Source: Branchiostoma lanceolatum (taxonomy: Eukaryota; Chordata; Leptocardii; Amphioxiformes; Branchiostomatidae). Taken from it: a stretch of 64,000 bases of DNA. Under the pieces are notes generated by a model that was not told where the DNA came from, searched no databases, and saw only the letters and a program-made list of their open reading frames with translations. A program made the position numbers and the translations under genes. The stretch is from positions 12,664,052 to 12,728,051 of the forward strand of contig NC_089740.1 of assembly GCF_035083965.1 (NCBI RefSeq). The letters are read 5' to 3'. Numbering within the stretch: the first letter of the stretch is position 1; every line of letters starts with the position of its first letter. Shown piece after piece: positions 8,046 to 24,800 of this stretch.

Positions 8046-11000
8046 ATGGCAAATACAGACACCAAGCTGTCTACAGTGGTGGAGGAACTTCGGGAACTAG
8101 ATCTAATCATCAAAAGTGGTTCTGATTTGGCCGTTGCAGAGAGGGGATACGGATGTAAGTTGATTCACGCTATAAGTAGTCAAAATAAGGTTTTGATGTG
8201 TGAGGCTTTGAAAAGTCTCGGAGATTTGTACCTGAACAGAACAAAGATTAACAAGCATAAGGTAGTGAACTTTCACAAGGCTTGTTCGTTGTACATCTTA
8301 CTGTTGCGATGTTACACAACCATTGAAGAGAAGCAAGTTGTACAACATCGTATCAGATATGCAGAGAAATGCTCGAAACTTGTACATGACGACACTATAA
8401 AACCACGTGCTACGAGTTCAGTCAATACCATATTGGCTGTGTCGGTGACCCTTCACGAAATGAAAAAGAAGATCAAGGTTGAAAGGTACGGTATGCAGCC
8501 ATTGATTGGAGACTATACAAACTCCTTTGTAAAAGCTGTCGCTGAAAGAAATAACCGTTTGGAAGTAGAATCACTGAAGAGCATCGGAGATCTGTACCTT
8601 GAGAAGAAAAGGGTTGGCAAGGACGAGGCAGCATTCACCAAAGGCAAAGCAGCTAGCCTATATCGAGCGGCACTGGACCTCTGTGAAGATGCAGATGGCA
8701 GAGAAACGCTAAGGCACCGCATCAAGTACGCGGAAAGAGTCAGGGAAAAGGAACACTTGCAGGAAGGCTGCAGGGCTCTGCAAAAGGGGGACTTGGACAT
8801 GGCAGAACTAAACTTTGCAGCTGCGCTCAAGTCTGTTCATCTATTTTTGAAAGGTGAGTATTTCAGTGCACATGTCGCAAGTAGACAGACTTCAGTTAGT
8901 GAAGCGAAATACATGTTTCGTTCGTGTACCAAACGCTGTGTCTGATAGCTTACAATTAAGTATTAAAGAAAACGCTTGAAATGGATTTCGTGGCTAACAT
9001 TGAACCGTACCATTAGTAATATGTAACAATCGTTTGGTACAGATTCCAATGCAGATCAGCGCTGGAAAGAAGCAGATCCCCTCTGCAAGTTAAGCGATAT
9101 CTACCAGAAGAGAGGGATGCAGTCAAAAGACGGAGGAGATTTCACCAAGGCCGCAGCACTCTGTAATGCAGCACTGGTCAGAGCAAGGGCAGAAGATCGA
9201 GAGGCCATCAAACAAACAATCCAACAAATAACCCAATCTTTTGTTAAGCAGGTACTGATAGAACAATCGGCACCCATCGATGATGTAGAGAAACACAAAT
9301 CGATGTTAATGGAATGCCGTAGCTATGTGGAAGAAGAAATCAAGAGAATTGATCTCCAAATAGATCCTTATAGCCTTGATGATGACGATCCAAACATCAT
9401 AGAAGTAGAGAAAAAGAGAGTGGAAGCAATCAAAGCCTTGTTTGGCACTATTGCTAATCAGCGAAGAACATTCGTAGCCGGCCTTGTAGATGAATGTGTG
9501 GAGGTAATGGGTCCCCCTCCCTGCAAATACGCCATGATAGGCCTGGGTTCACAAGCCACTGGATTAGTAACACCGTACTCCGATCTGGAGTTTGCTATTT
9601 TGATACAGAAGGACACAGAAAAGAATTTGAAGTATTTTCAAATTCTCACGCATTACCTTCATCTCAAAGTAATCAATCTTGGGGAAACCATTCTCCCGGC
9701 CATGGCGATCAAGTCTCTCAATGACTTTGAGTCAGATAACAAGCTAGACAACTGGTTCTACGACTCTGAAACACCGCATGGTTTCTCGTTCGATGGAGCC
9801 ATGCCAAATGCATGTAAAACCCCACTAGGCAGAGGTGAGACGTGCCTCCTTATTAAAACACCACTTGACATGGCCAGAGTTCTGGAAGATGATGTCACAC
9901 TCCACTTGAAGAAAGGTTACCACCTAGCGAGTGTTTTGGGAAATTCGTCTTTGATTACTGGAGAGCAAGGCTTGGTTTATGAATACATCACTGTATGGGA
10001 TGAGCAACTTAACAAAAATGAAAGGAAAATTGCTATGCTAATAGCGAACAATATATTAGAGGGAAATACTGCAACATTTAAAGTACGGGATCCGACAGCC
10101 CAAATGCTCGATGTAAAGAACGAAATCTACCGCTTTTCAAGCCTTGCAGTCTCTTATTGGGCGTTACGTTGTGGAATACATCCGACCACAATCTGGGAAA
10201 CTATCAAGAACATGCACAAGGAGGGAGACATCAATGATGAGAACGAACATCACTTGATGGTGCTGGTCAGCATCTCAGCAGAACTGAGGCTGCGGACATA
10301 CATGAACAATCGTGGTCAAGTGGAAAATATGTCAGCCTTATCGTCTATGTCAATCAATGATGATATCGAGGAAAAATCAATGAAAATCTTTTACTACTCC
10401 AATGTCAAACAGATACTGAGATACTACTACACGGCAACACCGTTGAAGTACTTTGTTTCGCAACTTAGCAATCCTCAACTCGTAACCAACCCATCGATTC
10501 TATTCGACAAATCATCGAGACTTCAAGCACATGTATACTTCAGTCTGTGCGACTACAAACAATCGAGGGCATGCATTGAACAGGCACTCCGAAATGAGCT
10601 CTCGAAACATGGAGACGGCAAGATACATTCTAATATAGCCGAGTTACATTACCTGTTGGGTATCACATTGCAAAACATCGGTGATAGCAAAAATGCTGTC
10701 AGTCATCATGAACAGGCACTAAAGATGTGGCGGAGTATTTATGGAGAGAGCACTGCTTATCCTTACATTGCCGAGTCACTTAACAACTTAGGTAACGCTT
10801 GCAGGGCCCTTGGTGATCACAAAAAGGCCGTCAGCTGTTATGAACAGTCACTAAAGATATCGGGGAGTATCTATGGTGAGAACATGGCACATCCTGCCAT
10901 CGCCGATTCACTTTGCAACTTGGGTGCCGTCTGGCTTGACTTTGGTGATCACAGAAAGGCCGCCAGCTTGTTTGACCAAGCACTAAAGATGAGACTGAGG

Positions 11001-13277
11001 ATCTATGGTGATAATAATGCTCATCGTAACATCGCCTACTCACTCAACAGCTTGGGTGCCACCTGGTGTTGCCTTGGTGACCACAGAAAGGCAGTCAGCT
11101 ATCATGAACATGCACTACAGATGTGGCGGATGATCTATGGTGAGAACACTGCACATCCTGACATCGCTAACTCACTTAGCACCTTGGGTGCTGCCTGGGG
11201 TGAACGTGGGGATCACAGAAAGGCCGTCAGCTATAATGAACAGGCACTACAGATGATGTGGCGTATCTATGGTGAGAACATCAAACAGCCTCATGATCAC
11301 ATCGCCTCGGTTTTCACAAGCTTGGGTAATGCCTGGAGGAGCCTTGGTGATTACAGAAAGGCCGTCAGCTATTACGAACAGTCTTTTCAGATGAGGCGGA
11401 GTATCTATGGTGAGGACACTGTACATCCTGGGATTGCGAAGTCACTTACCAGCTTGGGCGCCACCTGGAGTGACCGTGGTGATCACAGAAAGGCCGTCAG
11501 CTTTTATGAACAGGCACTACAGATGAACCGGAGTATCTATGGTGAGAACACTGCACATCCAAAGATTGCCGGTTCACTTAACAACTTGGGTGTCGCCTGG
11601 AGTGACCTTGGGGATCACAGAAAGGCCGTCAGCTTTTACGAACAGTCACTAAAGATATGGGGGAGTATCTATGGTGAAGACACTGCACATCCTGACATCG
11701 CCGGTTTACTTCACAACTTGGGTGCTGCCTGTTGTGACCTTGGGGATTACAGAAAGGCCGTCAGCTATTATCAACAATCACTACAGATGTGGCGGACTAT
11801 CTATGGTGATAGCAATGCATATCCTGCAATCGCTAAATTACTTAACAGCTTCGGCACCGCCTGGATAAAGTTAGGTTGTCACAGAAAGGCAGTCGGGTTT
11901 TTTGAACAGGCACTACAGATGGCGCTGAGTATCTATTGTGAAGACACTGCACATCCTGACATCGCCAACTCACTTGACAACTTGGGTATCGCCTGGAATG
12001 ACCTAGGGCATCACAGAAAGGCCGTCAGCTATTATGAACAGGCACTACAGATGAGGCGGAGTGTCTATGGTGAGAACAATACACACCCTGCCATCGCTTC
12101 ATCACTAAACAACTTGGGCAACGCCTGGAGTGGTCTTGGAGATCACAGAAAAGCCGTCAATTATCATGAACAGTCACTCCAGATGAGGCGGAGTGTCTAT
12201 GGTGAGAACACTGCACATCCCGAAATCGCCTGGTCACTTAATAACTTGGGTGCCGCCTGGAGAGAACTTGGGGATCACAGAAAGGCCGTCGGCTATCATG
12301 AACAGGCACTACAGATGAGGCGGGGTATCTATGGTGAGAACACTGCACATCCTGACACCGCTTCATCGCTTAGCAACTTGGGTAATGCCAGGAGTGACCT
12401 TGGGGATCACAGAAAGGCCCTCAGCTGTCATGAACAGTCTCTACAGATGGCGCGGAGTATCTATGGCGAGGACACCGCACATCCTGATGTTGCCTCATCA
12501 CTTAACAACTTCGGCGTCGTCTGGATAAACTTAGGCTGTTACAGAAAGGCAGTCAGATTTTTTGAACAGGCACTACAGATGAGGCGGAGTGTCTATGGTG
12601 AGGATACTGCACACCCTGACATCGCCGCGTCACTCAACAACTTGGGTGCCGCCTGGAGTTACCTTGGAGATCACAGAAAGGCCGTCATCAATTATCTTGA
12701 ACCGTCACTACAGATGATGCAGAGTATATACGGTAAAAATAATGCTCATCCTGTCATTGCCAAGTTACTGGCAAAATTGGGTTCCACCTGGTTTGACCTT
12801 GGTGATCTCAGAAAGACGGTCAGCTATTATGAACAGGCACTACAGATGATGAGGAGTATCCATGGTCAGAGCACTGCACATCCTGACATCGCCTTGTCAC
12901 TCAACAACTTGGGTGCCGCCTCGAGTAGCCTTGGTGATCACAGAAAGGCCATCAGCTACTATGAACAGTCACTAAATATGATGCGTAGTATCTATGGCGA
13001 GAACACTGCGCATAGTCAAATCGCCACGTCATTTAAAAACTTGGGTCTCACCTGGTTTCGCCATGGTGATCTCAGAAAGGCCGTCAGCTATTTTGAGCAA
13101 TCACTGAATATGTTGCGGAGTATCCATGGTGAGGACATTGCTCATCCTGACGTCGCTGAGTCACTTCACATCTTGGGTGCCGCCTGGCGTCTCCTTGGTG
13201 ATCACAGAAGGGCCGTCAGCTACTCCGCTGAGGCAACGCGGATGAAACAGAGGATTGATGAGACTTACAAGCCTTGA
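8046..13277 (+). CDS. Nucleotidyltransferase-like protein with TPR array
   Basis: Two coding exons, 8046-8853 and 9043-13277, join in phase (donor GTGAGT, acceptor TGGTACAG) to encode 1680 residues. Residues about 56-345 hold three related helical segments, each with an LGDLY/IGDLY/LSDIY core, a TPR-like layout. A polymerase-beta-type nucleotidyltransferase motif follows: G438-S439, ten residues, then D450-x-E452, after YAMIGLGS. A downstream F-D-G-A-M-P (D520) resembles DUF294/GlnD-type NTases. From about residue 770 to the end run 21 TPR units of 44 residues, of the kinesin-light-chain/nephrocystin-3 type ([16 protein letters not shown]...[12 protein letters not shown]). The start was chosen because ATGG has G at -3 and the frame is open from there. 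Domain assignment is by motif; the reaction, substrate and pathway are unknown. Automatic pipelines would probably name it nephrocystin-3-like or kinesin light chain from the repeats alone. Confidence 0.85.
10551..13265 (+). repeat. 132-bp coding repeat array (21 TPR units)
   Basis: The C-terminal half of the NTase-TPR gene is a tandem array of 132-base units. Conserved cores include GATCACAGAAAGGCCGTCAG, ATCTATGGTGAGAACACTGC and CATCCTGACATCGCC. The units are very similar in DNA as well as protein, pointing to recent expansion or homogenisation. Units 5 and 16 carry small in-frame insertions. The first unit (about 10551) and last (about 13197) are the most diverged, as expected at array edges. 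The frame stays open throughout. Confidence 0.9.
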
Positions 13278-13708: not shown

Positions 13709-13910
13709 GTTCATTCATTCTTACCAATCTGTCAATTTGAAAATTGTTTTCCAACTATTATCAATTACTATATTGTCTTCGTCTTTCGTGGAGTTTTAAC
13801 ATAAGGCATTGTGCACAAGTGCAAGCTATAACTAAAGTTGACCTTCACTAAATACATGTACAACATAACAGTAGACAGAAAAGTGTTTTTGGTGAATTAC
13901 TTTATTTAAA

Positions 13911-15640: not shown

Positions 15641-18600
15641 TTACTCCTGATCTTCCTCTTCTTCCAAATCCTCCGTCGGAAGGCCCAAACGGCGGCGACG
15701 AACTGAAAGAACGACAAAATAAAGCGTAAATTCCCGGCAGCTATATTACATGTCACTGTTTTATCAGTATTTGTCTCCAATAACCATGCACTTTAAAAAA
15801 ATAATACACTTCATATAAAGGTTTATTTCTACATACATGTAGGAATAACGTATTGATACAACAAAAGCTTAGAGACTTTTGTATGGTTGTCTATATTTCT
15901 ACACTAATAATAATTATAACATCAACCAAAATAATAATACCTTAACAGAAATGCAATACTGTACAATTTCTAGTAGTCTTTAAACAATCAAAGAAAATGA
16001 GTGAAAGTTTTACACCTAAACCTGCCATTTGGAATGTTCATTATTCACACACAGAGGCATGGTCTTAACTGCACAAAAATTAGGACAAATACTGTAACTG
16101 TTACAGATACTTTTAAACAATGTGGGAATGAAAGAATGTACACAGTGGAGATATCACTAATTGATAATGGGGTATTTGAAAGAATGGCCTAGCTATAGCT
16201 ACAGCCTGTTAGGAAAAAGGAACAAAATATTAGGTTATTGAGCAAAAGAGGTAAAATAAGAAATGAAGATGCCTGAAAGAGCAGATGACATAAGTAATGG
16301 TAATGTCAGAAGGGCTACATCAGGACAGACAAGTACAGGTACGTTAGATTTTTGTACACAATCATGTATTATGCAGTCTAGTTCTGCTTTAATCGCAACA
16401 TACTCTCACTCACTATCCTGTGTTGCTGTCACATAAAAACTAGAATGGCTAGACAATCTACCTGCACTCTACATGTAAATTTCTACCTACAGTATTTCTT
16501 ACATCCTACAGTAACTGATGTTGACTACATTTTGTACTTAAACTATACAGGCTAGAAAGACTGACAGCAAAGCTTTTTGTTTGTTGGTGTCTGTCCTTAC
16601 TGAAGTGTGTTGGAAACCTGTTTGAGACTAATCCTCGAAGCCCATTCGTCGTTTCCGAACTAGAGAGTGACAAGACAAAACAACACAACGGCAAAGAGAC
16701 AGGAAAAACAGAAAAAGAGTAAATGACATTCACATTTTCAAGAATTCGGTAACGCCTTTTTGTCTCATTTACACTGGATTGAAAGTTGCATAATAGTGTC
16801 CTATAAGCTTAGAACTTGATGCCATTCTGACTTTAGGTAATATGAACATTGCTTGTACATGTACTTGTAGAGCCTCCTTTGCACTGGATGGAGACAGTTG
16901 AGTGACCAAAAATAAATCTGTATGAATTTATAAATTGAATTTGATCCATGATGTACATTGTAAAAGTATGTACATTGTGAATGACAACAAATGTACAAAA
17001 CTTACAAAATTGGTTTGAACTACGACTGAAGTTTTTGATTGCTCAACTGTCTCAGCCTTGGTGGAAAGGGGCTATAACTTAACAAACTACCTCCCTGGCC
17101 CATGGCAAGTACAAAATCATGGATAAACAGGAGAGTGAAAAGATAAGTGTACAAAATGTAGTGCATTCAGAGAGAACAAACAATGTACATAATCAAAGTT
17201 GGAGAGTGGAAAGATCTTCCCCGAAAAGGGCTTTAGGAAGACTGAATACATGTAGATAAAAGTAAATATTTACAGAACACTCAAAATGTACCCTATGCAA
17301 CTGAATGTACAATGTGCATGACTTGTGTAAAAGTGGTCTGTGCCCTGTATCAAGAACTACAGATTTGTAAGCTAAACTTTGAAATAAGACGTTGCAATGA
17401 AGATCCTGTGTCCAGTAAGATGCCTTGCTGGCTGGACGTCTTGACAAAACCTTCTTTCTTCAAAGAAATGTATCATGGACATAAGAAACATGTTACTGCA
17501 AACTCTCCTCAGACATCAACCATCTAATCTGTATCAAGTCAAGTCAATGCCTTTATTTTACTTTGAAATGCTTGTTCAGCCACATGGCCGCTTTTCAACA
17601 AGGTCAAAGTGGAGGGGGAGGAGTCACGGATTAAGAGTACAAAAGAAACTTAACATGAACTATATCAACACAATCATGAATTATAAGTCGAAACTTATCT
17701 TTGTTACATTTTGTCCAACGCTTACGTGTACCTCTTCCCTCATGACCTCATTGAAAAGCGGCCAGCAGGCCGATAGGAGCCCTTCATAGAATAAACAAAG
17801 GCTCAAACAAACAAACAAAGAAAAACAAGACTTACCCAGGTCGTTGTTGCGAGTTAGAGTGTGGTCAGCGGAGTCCCGCGGTCCGGGGAACTCGAAGCTG
17901 TAGCCGAACTTCAGGACGACCCTGTTCTTTTTCAACATGTCCGCGATCGCCATCTCGCACGAGTTCCCCAATGAGTGCCGCTAAGCGAAATCAAAACGTA
18001 ATGGTAAAGAACCCGTAGCATTTGAGGCCCTAAAGCCTCTGTCACAAATAAGAAATTCAGCTCGGCCAACGTGTTGGCGAGCTTCAAATGTGCATTTTCG
18101 GCCGAAGTACGGCCGACGTCCTGTCGATTATGCCCTCTTCGGGCAATTTTTAGAAATAAAAGTTGATCCAAATATTGGCCTTTTACCAGGTTAGTCGATA
18201 CTGACTTCGTCCATGTCCAAGAGATGGGACCATCTCATGGGGGATTTTTAGTTTTTAGTGTTTGACGGACGTCGCCCGAGATTTTCATTGGAAAATAAAG
18301 TCGACGCTCGGGCAATTTTGAAACTCAGCGAGCTTTGGGCGATCTACAAAGTCAGCTGACGCTCGAATGAATTGTGAAGCCGTCTTAAGGACAGTGGGTT
18401 GTTATCCACTGTGTCTACGGCACTCTCCTTCCATTGAAAAGAAGCAAAGATGACTCTCCTTCCACAGCGTTTTACCTCCCCAACCAAAGTCAGGTACCCA
18501 TTTACAAAAAAATTCCAAGGCTTTGGATTAGACTTATAATGTACAATGTAAAGACTTGCTACATACATGTAGTGATCATAGTTAAAGGAGAATACATCAT

Positions 18601-21600
18601 TTACTAAAAATCCGTAATATTTAACAAGGCAAGTAGTAAAAAAAAGACAAAATGGTAACATAACATGATTTTTTCTATGTAGCTACAACTCAATGAGAGA
18701 AGAGAAATATATTTCAATCTTATGATTATTATTTTGTATAATTTTGATCTATTTCTTAATAAATTGTAAATGGTAATTTGATAATGTACAGTGTAATCAC
18801 ACTTATTATAACGTAATCTTACTTATTATGTTTACAACTCAATTTATTTTGTATTTCCTCTTCTTTTCCATTTGTTTCATTAGGATTTATGGTACAATTT
18901 CAATTTGTTCTTTCGTTAAATTTGCTTAGTTTTGATTATGTATAATTTGGTAAAAATTCCCATTGTCTAGTTTAGGGGAGGCCCATGAAAAGCCACCTAG
19001 GCTTCTGCCCCCCCTGCATGTTTTCTTTTTGCCCTGTTTATCTTTTTATAATTGTACATATATGCGAATAAACAATAAACAACATTGACCAATGTAAGTA
19101 CATACCTGGTTCGCTATTCTGATTTCTGTCAGGGTTGGATGGTTCACCACTGACTTCATTATTTCCTGTAGTGAGAAAAAAAATTGTCATAAATTTCTCT
19201 ACCATACATCCTTTCAAAACATTGCCATAAAATTCTCACATTTTGACAGAGCTTTTAGAGGAATTGAAAGAAAATGAACCTGAATCCTGTTAGCAATAAA
19301 TCAATTTTTTATTGGCCAAGTTAAAAGAAATACAACTGTAAGGCCTTGAAGCTGCCCAGAACATCTACACTTATCAAAAAGATTAAGACCAAACCTTACA
19401 GTTCAATCTTACACAGCTTGTAGGTAAAGCGATTGAACCTCTTTTTTGTAATGCAATGCAGTTTGCTATGGCTCACGTTACTAACCAAGCACACCTTGTA
19501 CCTACTTTAACATATCAGGTTTGTTACGCCTAAAGGTGGTGTACTGGTCATGCAAAACATACTAAGATTTTTACCTTCATTCCTTCACCAGAAATAAAGT
19601 TGGACTCGATGTTGAGTCTCTCCAAGGTGGTGTTTTCCTTCAGTCCCTCTGCTAGATCCTGAAGAATAAAATAAAGATTGAAAGACTTCAAAAATTCTCT
19701 TATTGAATCACTTTAACCTCTATCTAATAGCAACAATGTTATAAATATTTTTCTTTAAAAACCAACCTATACCAAGACCTAGTACAGTAGGGGCATGCTC
19801 ACTAGATAGCTTTATATAACGGTGGCAGCTAGATGTGCAAAGTTTATGCGTGACAGGGCGTTCATGGTAATACAACCAGCTGCTGCCACGCCAGGTGCCT
19901 GCAAAGCTGGTGTGTGTTACACCGAAGGGCGGCTTTACTGACTATACAGATACAGAAGCTCAAGTATTATACTGAAGGGTGGTAATACTGGCTTCACACA
20001 TGTAGATACAGAATGTCGTATGCTGGGCACCCTCCTTATATCAGGACCACTATCGCTCCACGTTAGCTCGCTCGCGTTGGGGCCCTGATCTTCAGTGCCG
20101 GTAGACATGGTTCTGGCGACGACACCACCAAAACATCTTCAGCCAATCAGAGGGTTTGCTAAACCTCATCTCAAGCAAAAGCGCAAAGGATGCTGGGAAG
20201 CTATCAACCAATCAGGTTACGTCTCATATGGTTACTTTAGGTTCAGAACAAATTAACCGCCAAATTGTACCAAATAAGGACAGCTCATTAATTATTCATC
20301 AGCAACTGTCAGTAACAGCGCCAGAACCATGTCTACCGGGGCTGAAGATCAGGGCCCCAACGCGAGCGAGCTAACGTGGAGCGATAGGGGTCCTGATTTA
20401 AGGAGGGTGATGCTGGGATGTCGTGTTGCTGACTGACCTTCGCCACCTTGTCGTTGCTACGCGTGGACGCCATACTGAGACGCTTCAGGTTGGTGTTGTT
20501 GGCCAGAGAGCTGCAGATGTCTCCCAGGGTCGGGATGGCGATGTTCTGTAAACAAACAAACAAACAAACAATTAAATATGTCAGCAAATATATAAGACAG
20601 TGATGATTTATATAAAAACAACTCCAAACAGCTGCCCCAAAGGTATTTAAGGAGTCCAACAGCAATCTTAAGAAACATAGACCGATCACAAGAAGTGTTA
20701 TTAAGCTTACGAATAGGTTCTTGATGGAAAAACACCAAACATAATTATGAAATGTAAATTAATCTTTTGTCTATTACCGGCTTTTTGGCTGCCACTGCCT
20801 CACTGTGACATCAATGCAATTGCTTGTATAACAATAATCTTAAGAAACATAGACTGAGTCACCTTGATGTTGTTCAGGTTGAGGTCGGTGAGATCGGAGT
20901 CGTTGTCCTGAAGTTTGGTCAGGCTCTCATGGGGGTCGGTCGTGTTGGGGGGCTCCGACTGGACCTGGGGGTATGCTGCGCACTTCACAACCGCTAGGGG
21001 GAGTCGATGAACACAAACATGTTATACTTTGCTGTTCTTGCCATGTATTCATCATCATCATCAGTCAATGTGCTTATGCACTGTTGGGGTTTCCATGCAC
21101 CTTACGGGGTGACATACCCTTTCGTTGGCTGATACAAGACGGGTTTCGCCAGGTCTCCCATCCAGGTGAATGATGTATTACAAGTGTTACATACATGTAG
21201 TAGCATACAACTAGGCTAAATGGGTACCATATCATAATAAACCGTAAGACCCTTCAGGTTTAAAACTAGGTTGTATTGTCATAAAGCAACATGGACTGTA
21301 TGATATATATATGCAACACTGTCCCCCCTACTAAGGCAGGTACCCTTAAAACCGCTGATTAAAAAAAACAGCCTTCCTAAGAATGTCTAACTTCAACATG
21401 TAGATATCTGAAGACGTGTAGATACCTCTGGAATTACTGAATCAGATGCTACATTTAGTAGATCGCTTTAAATTCACCATTTTTAACAATGTTGTAGTCT
21501 TCAGGCACCCACTTGCAATTATGATATGTTCCATATATAGTGCTGTGTACCTAAACCCGTGTTCAGGTTCAGATCCAGAGGTTCAGGTTCAGGTACGGAC

Positions 21601-24600
21601 TCAGGTTCAGGACGGACTTATAAGTCCGGACTTAGGTTCAGGTACGGACTTATAAGTCCGGACCTGAACCCATGGCATTTGTGTGCTAAAAATATTTTTT
21701 TCCTGTTACGTGTAAAATTGCATATTGGCATATACATTATACATGCAATTTGAAAACTATGGATACGAAATCATATACAGTCAGTTGTAAACACAAAAGT
21801 TGAGACACTTATAAACACAAAAACAGCATTGTTTTCATATTTTTCCAGTGCAAATTTCATGATCTAAGGACGGTTAAAGATGTTGGCATCTGGTTTAAAA
21901 CAAAAAGGAGAGTATAAGCGAGAGATTTTTTTTCAAGTCCGGACTTGTTTCCAGACGTTTAGGTTTTTTTGGACTTGAACCTAAACGTTAGGTCCAGTTC
22001 GGATCAGGTCTGGGGTTTAGGTACACAGCACTATCCATATATAGCCCTAAGTGCAATACTTACAGCGGAAGCCCTCCTTGTTGGCGATTTCTCCGGAAGC
22101 CAGCGAGGCGTAATACTGGTCGTTGGACATCAGGGTGTGCATCCCGAGGATGGCTGCAAGACACAAGAGAACGGGTTTACATGGCTATGTACTTCTTACA
22201 AACATACTGGTGGGTTGAATGAGGAAACATCCAGTAAACATTAATGCTGAGGGAAAAGAAAATAGCACCAAAACAATGAAAACTGTTGATGATAAAACTA
22301 AAACTGCAAAGATTTTTCTTATCACAGTATCAAAATGATTCCCAAAACATTTCGGAAATGTCTGACCGTTTGACCGTTTCCAAATTTTGTTCAACTGCTT
22401 GTCGAATGAGTACAAGTAACTGTTACTTTGCGCCTTTTTTTGTATGTTTTTCTTTGACTTAAAGGTAGATGGAAAACAGGCATTACTGACCAGCCAAGTC
22501 GCACAGTTCTCCGTCGGTTGCTTCCTTCAGTGCCTCCTCAAGTTCAGGGTCCAGGACCGGGTCATCACCCTCATCTTCATCCTTTACTTCTTTCTTCACG
22601 TACGCTTTTCCTGTACATCAAGGAAAATAGCATACATGTAAATCGCAGCACATAGGCGCCCTATATCTACTCTTGTGAGAACTGCACTCTAAACCAGCTC
22701 AGGATCTAGGATCTGTTTGTCTCCTTGATCCTCATCTTTCACTTCCTTCTTTACAAACACTTTTCCTGAAGACCAGGGAAAACAGCATAAACCACAGTGC
22801 AGTGGCTCCCCCTATCTACTCCTGATAGAACTGCACTCTCCCAAATTCAGGTCCAAGACAGGCTCCTCACGATTGTCTTCCTTTTTTCATTCTGGTCAAC
22901 AAGATAAAAATGATAAAATCCCAGCATAGCAGCTCACTCTATCTATTGTTAAGAGAATTTCACTCAAGAATCAAATGTTGACTGGCTACACACAGTTCCA
23001 GAGAGTATATACATGTAATACTATGATGGTCAGACTGAAGTTTTCCTTCCAATTTCCATTCCTCTGTTTTCATCATGCTACATGTGTGTGTCTAAGTTCC
23101 TACATTTCGTACCAATGAAGGAAATGAATTGATGTGGCCTGATAGAAGAGCATTTCCTCACTCATCACATTTTTGCAGCATTCCTAATCAAACTTTAAGC
23201 CTTCCGTAATGCTAATGGAAACAATTTCATTTTCTGGTCCAAAGCACACCAGGCAATGCTGCCAAATTCTTTCATCCCAATCCACAAGCCCACAACACAC
23301 TTATACCCATTAGGACAAATGAGGTGATCAGGATGTGTAGAGGGCAAAAGTTCTATATCTATCTATTTCTATATAACCGGTATAACCGCCATTCGGTGTA
23401 ACACACCAAGCTACAGTTACTGGTTGTCTGACCATTCGGTGTAACATACCAAGCTACAGTTACTGATTGTTTAAACATACTTAGTATATTGTACAGTTAT
23501 GATAATCATAGATTGTTATGCAGTCCATGTCTAACTCCATTGTAATGTCTTGTCTTTGTCAGCAGGGCTAGCCCTTTGTAATAGCCACAGGCTAGTTGGG
23601 CAGCCCTGGCTGTGTGTGCTGAACAGTCAAACCAATAAATAAAATAATTAATAAAATAAACGTACCCTTCCTTTCTCCGGTAAACGGAATCAGATCCTCG
23701 CGATCCTTGTACTCGCGCGCCGACTTCTCCAGGTACTTCAGGAGGTGTTCGCGGTCCAACTTTCCCGTCGGCCCCTTCTTCGTCTGGTCGTGTTGTCTCA
23801 GGCCAACCGGCAACAAGTCGTTCTGGAAAGGTAGTAGTAGCCACAATGTCAGAATTTAATCCTTCAAAATATAGCTTCAAGATACGGATAGTTTCTTTCT
23901 TTGATATTTCCTCATTGCACTCTTTTTTTCATCAGTTCTTTTCTTTTCCACCCTCCTTTCCTTAGATTTGTTCTGAAGTTTTCTAACAAAATCTAGTTAA
24001 TAAGTTGATTCAGATACACTGGGCCATACCCTAATCTTATGTAGTGTGGTTGGTTCCTTAACCATTATTTATAGTACTAGTGTGCTTGAGATCTAGAAGT
24101 GACTGTCCTCAACACATGACCATGAATTTCAAATTAAAGGACTGCAACCCCTAACAGTAGCTAGAGCATGCAAATTCTGAGCACAGCACATGAACTGGTG
24201 CATGTAGGTAAGGAAAGGAAAGGGACCCTGAACCAGTTTAGCTCAAATGAACTCAATGAACAGATGAGCTAATCTTCCATTGGTCGCGACAAAGAAGACA
24301 GACGCTAGGTACAGTATTTACAGGTTCATTGTAACGGGGAAATTCCCGACCAGCACAATGAACAGTGGACCACGGCCTAATGTCCCCTTTCTGGTAGCGT
24401 GCATGTCGGGCGAGCGACACAGCCGGGATTGAACTCGCGGCTTCTAGTTCCAGAGGCAAGATCACTAACCACTGGACTAGGCACGCTACGGTAAGGATCA
24501 AACCCACGACTTTTGGCAGGAATGCCACTAATTGAGCCACGGCACAGTCACACTACTTACATCAGGGTCGAGCTCAGCATTCAGCTCCTCCAACTCCTCC

Positions 24601-24689
24601 TCTGTCATGGAGGACAGGATGGCATCTTCATCGATGTCCCTGTACTTCTCCAGGTCCTCCCCCAAACCAAACTTGATCAGTCCTGCCAT
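15641..24689 (-). CDS. TMOD: Tropomodulin (distal C-terminal isoform)
   Basis: Tropomodulins cap the pointed ends of actin filaments and bind tropomyosin in the cytoskeleton. Ten coding exons join in phase: 24689-24561, 23822-23666, 22610-22491, 22153-22064, 20993-20863, 20545-20438, 19658-19575, 19165-19106, 17980-17836 and 15702-15641. They give 361 residues, the normal family length. Residues 1-43 (MAGLIKFGLGEDLEKYRDID...) form the first tropomyosin-binding site. Exon 2 (LDREHLLKYLEKSAREYKD) matches the first actin-binding helix, and exons 3-4 (LDPELEEAL... AILGMHTLMSNDQYYASL) match the second tropomyosin site. Exons 5-9 form the leucine-rich-repeat cap (LTDLNLNNIK, LERLNIESNFISG, LKFGYSF). 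This isoform ends in a basic-then-acidic tail (VRRRRLG... EEEEDQE). The start ATG lies 18 bases inside an exon with a good acceptor (CCCTACAG). Any non-coding first exon upstream was not identified. Leiomodin is excluded by the lack of a long proline-rich/WH2 extension. Confidence 0.93.
15822..15827 (-). terminator. Candidate proximal poly(A) signal of tropomodulin
   Basis: TTTATT on the plus strand (AATAAA on the transcript) lies about 800 bases beyond the proximal terminal exon and 120 bases before the acceptor of the distal one. That is where alternative polyadenylation would need it. Confidence 0.45.
16628..16659 (-). CDS. TMOD: Alternative terminal exon of tropomodulin
   Basis: On the minus strand, a good acceptor (GTCACTCTCTAG) precedes TTCGGAAACGACGAATGGGC. 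Joined to exon 9, which ends in phase 1 with G, this reads VRKRRMGFED and stops. The distal exon has the same phase and the parallel start VRRRR. The result is a 351-residue protein that shares the first 341 residues and lacks the acidic tail. The VRKRR core matches what I know of the end of vertebrate tropomodulin LRR domains (NNDLVRKRRL), so this may be the more ancestral ending. An AATAAA on the minus strand at 15822-15827 lies between the two terminal exons and could end this isoform. Confidence 0.75.
18700..19083 (+). mobile_element. Possible non-LTR retroelement 3' end
   Basis: An AT-rich stretch leads into a GC-richer block (GGGGAGGCCCATGAAAAGCC) and ends in AATAAACAATAAACAA. A short repeated A-rich tail is typical of CR1/L2-type elements. 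It lies in the intron between tropomodulin exons 8 and 9. No reverse-transcriptase reading frame is present, so this is a suggestion from overall look only. Confidence 0.3.
20028..20409. mobile_element. 382-bp hAT-type MITE with 8-bp target duplication
   Basis: The element starts CACCCTCCTTA and ends TAAGGAGGGTG, with long matching arms: CGCTCCACGTTAGCTCGCTC near the left end, its reverse complement near the right. It is flanked by an exact 8-base direct repeat, ATGCTGGG, at 20020-20027 and 20410-20417. An 8-base duplication is typical of hAT elements. It sits in the tropomodulin intron 20 bases from the donor of exon 6 (20438). It has no coding capacity. Confidence 0.85.
21541..22034. mobile_element. 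Inverted-repeat element with TTCAGG repeats
   Basis: The left end TGCTGTGTACCTAAAC and right end GTTTAGGTACACAGCA are reverse complements. CCATATATAG flanks both sides as a direct repeat (21531-21540, 22035-22044). The exact split between target duplication and terminus is ambiguous because ATAG belongs to both. Inside lie short GGTTCAGG tandem repeats and the palindrome GGACTTATAAGTCC twice. It is inserted about 20 bases from the donor of tropomodulin exon 4. Confidence 0.6.
22689..22765 (-). pseudogene. Decayed tandem copy of tropomodulin exon 3
   Basis: Immediately upstream (in gene sense) of real exon 3, the minus strand reads CTTCAG as an acceptor and then a frame KVFVKKEVKDEDQGDK... 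ILDPELV followed by TAG. The real exon reads KAYVKKEVKDEDEGDDPVLDPELEEA. The copy therefore keeps the acceptor, the phase and the 5' half of the exon, then stops. It is part of a local tandem duplication that includes flanking intron (GAACTGCACTCT repeated). Confidence 0.75.
22841..22895 (-). pseudogene. Second, more decayed copy of tropomodulin exon 3
   Basis: The minus strand here still reads GAAGACAATCGTGAGGAGCC and then a PVLDL-like stretch matching the DDPVLDPEL part of exon 3, with the 5' half scrambled. It is followed by the same GAGTGCAGTTCTATCAG intron block as the copy at 22689-22765, so it belongs to the same tandem series. Confidence 0.5.
23520..23661 (+). mobile_element. Possible retroelement 3' end with AATAAATAA tail
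   Basis: A GC-richer block (GGGCTAGCCCTTTGTAATAG, then GGCTAGTTGGGCAGCCCTGG) ends in an imperfect AATAAATAAAATAATTAATA tail, a layout common in 3' ends of non-LTR elements. The tail stops about 5 bases from the donor of tropomodulin exon 2. No coding part is seen. Confidence 0.35.
24253..24492 (-). mobile_element. tRNA-derived SINE
   Basis: On the minus strand the element begins GCGTGCCTAGTCCAGTGGTT. That is an A-box-like region, followed by a B box in GCGAGTTCAATCCCGGC at tRNA spacing (about 40 bases). A tRNA-unrelated body follows, with a short hairpin, CGGGAATTTCCCCG. It lies in the first coding intron of tropomodulin, in gene sense. It does not fold as an intact tRNA, so I call it a SINE rather than a tRNA gene. 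Confidence 0.65.
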
Positions 24690-24740: not shown

Positions 24741-24800
24741 AAGGTCCTCCCTCAATCCAAACTTAAAAAGCTCTGCCATGGTTCACTGTAATGCGTTTCT
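24741..24800 (-). pseudogene. Decayed tandem copy of the tropomodulin start exon
   Basis: Exactly 90 bases upstream of the real start region, the minus strand repeats CAGTGAACCATGGCAG and reads MAELFKFGLREDL, then stops. The real exon reads MAGLIKFGLGEDL. The copy includes leader sequence, the start codon and about 13 codons. An AG (CCATACAG) precedes it at the place equivalent to the true acceptor. If included in the mRNA it would act as an upstream ORF. Confidence 0.75.

Follow-up and report, generated by a model that had tools for sequence, protein, structure and literature searches.

The minus strand of the 64-kb window, by which we mean the whole stretch of amphioxus DNA that was analyzed, carries a tropomodulin coding region made of nine exons and two candidate last exons (Table 1). 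Exons 1 to 9 were joined by script into one coding sequence, and the splice sites and the frame were checked. The reading frame is open throughout, GT is found at the start of all nine donors and AG ends each of the eight acceptors of exons 2 to 9. The 3' end of exon 9 encodes NNDL followed by a split Val codon, and its donor is GTAAGT at 17836 (context GTAAGTCT). An acceptor-like AG ends directly ahead of 24707, upstream of the start codon in exon 1, and a further 5' UTR exon is therefore suggested upstream of coding exon 1.

Proteins of the tropomodulin family (Tmod1-4) cap the pointed end of actin filaments. The identification of the predicted product as a tropomodulin, already made in an earlier sequence-only reading of this DNA, is firm on the strength of its domain and structure matches. 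The N-terminal tropomodulin domain (Pfam PF03250) is present at residues 11-146 with an E-value of 3.8e-54 (182.9 bits for a cut-off of 23.3). Residues 11-347 match the solved Tropomodulin-1 of the PDB (E 3.1e-111), including the VRKRR that closes the LRR domain, and residues 163-347 cover the whole solved tropomodulin chain 1io0_A (E 1.9e-51). The LRR actin-binding site 2 domain is thus represented together with its C-terminal helix, which ends in NNDLVRKRR. Leiomodin-2 is the next-best structural match, nearly over its full length (E 1.7e-52), and a chain named tropomodulin TMD-1 is matched as well (93 bits).

Table 1. Coding exons and putative poly(A) signals of the tropomodulin gene (positions in the window)
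Feature	Position	Strand	Remark
Coding exon 1	24561..24689	-	begins with the start codon
Exon 2	23666..23822	-	spliced model
Exon 3	22491..22610	-	spliced model
Exon 4	22064..22153	-	spliced model
Exon 5	20863..20993	-	spliced model
Exon 6	20438..20545	-	spliced model
Exon 7	19575..19658	-	spliced model
Exon 8	19106..19165	-	spliced model
Exon 9	17836..17980	-	end of LRR/actin-binding site 2 domain; aligned to Tropomodulin-1
Proximal last coding exon (candidate)	16628..16659	-	ten codons; tail VRKRRMGFED, then stop
Distal last coding exon (candidate)	15641..15702	-	tail VRRRRLGLPTEDLEEEEDQE, then stop
AATAAA, putative proximal poly(A) signal	15822..15827	-	rank 1 of 79; four TGTA in 80 nt upstream
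AATAAA, putative distal poly(A) signal	13901..13906	-	rank 7 of 79; no TGTA in 80 nt upstream

Two further features were observed in and next to the gene. An open frame of 1386 residues with tetratricopeptide repeats occupies 9117-13277 of the plus strand, has a nephrocystin-3 TPR match and, near its N terminus, weakly matches a putative nucleotidyltransferase domain (DUF294, E 0.00014). The frame and the tropomodulin gene converge, with about 620 nt between the end of the frame and the distal AATAAA. The intron after exon 6 displays at 20030-20430 an apparent inverted repeat, seen by eye, in which a segment close to the intron start returns as its reverse complement some 300 nt on; this is perhaps a mobile element.

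Two candidate last exons

The sequence-only reading had placed two acceptor-preceded exons of the same phase at 16659-16628 and 15702-15641, and these coordinates were recovered exactly. It had also described both exons as starting with VR(K/R)RR after exon 9, one ending shortly as VRKRRMGFED and the other carrying an acidic tail, and this description was found to be accurate. Exon 9 breaks off inside a codon (G|TT) that either exon completes, both being in phase 1 and starting with V-R, and the resulting protein counts 351 residues with the proximal ending and 361 with the distal one. Beyond VR[KR]RR, 5 residues remain in the proximal tail and 15 in the distal tail. The latter consists of VRRRRL and 14 more residues, eight of them acidic, and the net charge of the tails, counted as K/R against D/E, is +2 for the proximal and -4 for the distal one. 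Tropomodulin-1 has the same VRKRR as the proximal tail at the matching position, and the distal VRRRR is one residue off. When the distal ending was used as a query of 70 residues, ten solved chains were found and their matches stopped at residue 56 to 58, so that the acidic tail is unmatched in all of them, Tropomodulin-1 included. Read-through of exon 9 into its intron was considered as a third ending and set aside: the tail of about 50 residues so obtained is unlike the VR[KR]RR motif.

The placement of the motif was evaluated against chance. Acceptor-like sites were defined as YAG preceded by at least 10 pyrimidines out of 14 with no AG nearby, and the window contains 333 of them (199 on the minus strand and 134 on the plus strand). 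An in-phase VR[KR][KR]R follows only two of these sites, which are those of the two last exons. The 3945-nt region downstream of exon 9 was also simulated in 3000 first-order Markov copies, with a mean of 11.7 acceptor-like sites per copy; VR[KR]RR in phase never arose (0/3000), and the looser V[RK]4 was obtained at a rate of 0.0007 per copy. Both last-exon acceptors display 14 pyrimidines out of 17 at positions -20 to -4, equal to the highest values of the eight constitutive acceptors of exons 2 to 9 (12 to 14) and reached by 1.5% of the 1880 YAG sites on the minus strand. A yTnAy branch-site match was absent at -45 to -15 of the proximal exon, as it is in three of the eight constitutive exons. 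Because the proximal exon is limited to ten codons, its open frame carries little weight.

An AATAAA had been noted after each last exon in the sequence-only reading and is indeed present, at 15827 and 13906. The first of these lies downstream of the proximal exon and 125 nt ahead of the distal one. The ranks given in Table 1 derive from a home-made score of downstream T/G richness applied to the 79 AATAAA sites of the window. Two additional hexamers occur in 17835-13500, namely an intronic AATAAA at 17557, ranked 19th by the same score, and an ATTAAA at 16393, so that hexamers alone are not distinctive. Along the minus strand, exon 9 is followed by the proximal acceptor, stop and AATAAA, then by the distal acceptor, stop and AATAAA; as far as the predicted elements go, this order is that of alternative last exons.

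Relationship of the last exons and partial copies of other exons

The two last exons were compared in order to determine whether one is a copy of the other. With 200-nt flanks, their DNA reaches a local score of 13, equaled in 41 of 300 shuffles, and the flanks alone are no more similar, the upstream score being reached in 25 and the downstream score in 239 of 300 shuffles; none of these values is significant. The peptide score of 26 is likewise below the best scores of shuffled peptides (35 and 34). Over the 23 aligned nucleotides nine differences are seen, five of them at third positions (P 0.17, not significant); six codons are changed, three of them non-synonymously. Three aligned Arg codons differ in their third base only, a pattern consistent with constraint at the protein level. 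As the similarity is not significant, the claim made here is limited to the following: both exons encode the conserved end motif of the family in the right place, and mutual copying is not claimed.

Copies of other exons were searched by comparing the eleven exon peptides to the minus strand of 33000-13300, with 20 shuffles each. Two copies exceed the shuffled maximum: one of exon 1 (45 for a maximum of 43) and one of exon 3, designated copy B (94 for 47). A match between exons 6 and 7 (43 for 39) is what leucine-rich repeats would be expected to give. The partial tandem copy of exon 1, at 24742-24789, is 85% identical over 48 nt, possesses a start codon and reads MAELFKFGLREDL before a stop. 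Partial tandem copies of the acceptor region and 5' half of exon 3 sit upstream of that exon. Copy B spans 22690-22845 (exon part 22765-22695) and reads KVFVKKEVKDEDQGDKQILDPEL, then V, then a stop; no in-phase donor was spotted by eye. Twenty differences separate its exonic part from exon 3, and 14 of them are at third codon positions (P 0.001), as if the copy had once been under coding constraint. Copy A, at about 22966-22840, is weaker; it has the intron part in common (69% over 52 nt), and its peptide score (42) does not reach the shuffled maximum (47). At the DNA level, the exon 1 and exon 3 copies score 34 and 46, respectively, for shuffled maxima of 14.

Proposed alternative last-exon choice and competing explanations

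The locus is probably best explained, judging from its layout, as a single tropomodulin gene ending in either of two alternative last exons. The expected anatomy is present: two terminal exons of the same phase, each provided with an acceptor, a stop and a putative poly(A) signal.

An unlikely alternative, although the strongest of those considered, is that the distal exon serves as the working terminus, the proximal exon being a relic or rarely spliced pseudo-exon, an old copy whose appearance has survived by chance or whose use is mere noise. The other partial exon copies in the gene are broken, that of exon 1 by the stop after its short reading and that of exon 3 by an early stop; tandem copying has therefore occurred in this gene, and a proximal exon of ten codons offers small room for visible damage. 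However, those copies can still be aligned well as DNA and the last exons cannot, so that a duplication of the last exon, if real, looks older than the partial copies of exons 1 and 3. Despite this greater age if it is a copy, the proximal exon retains its phase, its acceptor, a VRKRR identical to that of Tropomodulin-1, its stop and the first-ranked AATAAA. The opposite explanation, in which the proximal exon is the usual end and the distal one a lineage-specific addition or rarely used, is quite improbable. It would account for the closer agreement of the proximal motif with Tropomodulin-1, from which the distal one departs by a single residue, and for an acidic tail unmatched among ten solved chains. 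It is at odds with a distal acceptor whose pyrimidine content equals the highest among the others, with the rank of the distal AATAAA (7/79) and with an in-phase motif at the distal exon that is unlikely by chance. Finally, a chance match, opposed by the 0/3000 simulations, or an assembly artefact joining two haplotypes in tandem, conceivable since amphioxus genomes are highly heterozygous but opposed by last exons and flanks that lack the near-identity expected of two haplotypes, is very unlikely.

Under alternative last-exon choice, the two forms could be produced as follows. Joining of the exon 9 donor to the acceptor before 16659, with cleavage past the AATAAA at 15827, would yield the 351-residue form ending in VRKRRMGFED. 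Skipping of the proximal terminal exon would join exon 9 to the acceptor before 15702 and, with cleavage past the AATAAA at 13906, yield the 361-residue form. The choice would presumably result from a competition between proximal splicing and cleavage on one side and read-through on the other, and both ends would be used in RNA. The tail would be positioned just beyond the C-terminal helix of actin-binding site 2, so that the terminus would remain net basic in the short form and be acidic in the long form. With an acidic tail, binding at the actin pointed end or to tropomyosin might be expected to become weaker or to be redirected. Removal of the last 15 residues of Tmod1 is described as disrupting actin-binding site 2 and homologous changes in Tmod2 as disrupting G-actin binding at the same site (PMC6190845), hence the end of tropomodulin appears to matter. 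The earlier proposal that tail charge is switched by last-exon choice thus stands as regards the charge difference, which is real, and the anatomy, which fits it; its functional effect is something we infer.

Comparison with known systems

Alternative last exons that swap short C-terminal ends are an already known gene arrangement, as exemplified by KRAS4A/4B. The open literature searched on tropomodulin in amphioxus and on alternative last exons of tropomodulin provided no clear report of such exons in this family, although the two isoforms may already figure among automatic gene models. Amphioxus tropomodulin is reportedly the subject of a paper by Bao et al. (2012, in Gene). Amphioxus is reported to have one tropomodulin gene (PMC10605842). 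Actin binding at site 2 is said to require the end of tropomodulin, which nevertheless seems devoid of actin contact in the solved structure (PMC6190845). Isoforms that occur naturally as a pair and differ only in their end, in an animal reported to have a single tropomodulin gene, would constitute a clean system for the study of tail function. The same pair could show whether vertebrate paralogues replaced a splice choice. The full scenario, in which a single pre-vertebrate gene made short and long tails by last-exon choice and vertebrate duplicates then split them between long Tmod1 and short Tmod2, replacing splicing, is speculative and has little probability in our view.

The gene resembles Tmod1-4 in its PF03250 domain, located in the N-terminal half, and in the match to Tropomodulin-1 over residues 11-347 including VRKRR. 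The sequence-only reading had added that vertebrates use separate paralogues for such tails, a comparison that receives some support from the statement that the last 10 residues of Tmod1 are without analogue in Tmod2 (PMC6190845). The end of Tmod2 is given in that article both as E348-R352 and as G348-R351. On this basis, a length difference of about ten end residues is common to Tmod1 and Tmod2 and to the two isoforms predicted here, the difference lying between paralogous genes in the former case whereas it would lie between last exons of one gene in the latter.

Leiomodins are alike in the nearly full-length match of Leiomodin-2 and in the variable stretch after the same helix. Their C-terminal extension is described as proline-rich with a WH2 (PMC4571291), whereas both tails here, with 5 and 15 residues, are too short for it. 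A leiomodin-like WH2 exon was also sought in 17835-13300 with a crude pattern; three L[KR][KR]x matches were returned and nothing convincing, each match having an in-frame stop at most 7 codons upstream. The origin of leiomodin is placed in the stem of Olfactores (PMC5888912).

The closest likeness in gene arrangement drawn here is to KRAS4A/KRAS4B, in which two last exons are swapped, altering a short C-terminal end (PMC9882654). Mutually replacing last exons would change a short C-terminal end in the same manner in the tropomodulin gene. The protein is a different one, however, and the end of KRAS serves membrane targeting, whereas the tropomodulin tail adjoins an actin-binding site.
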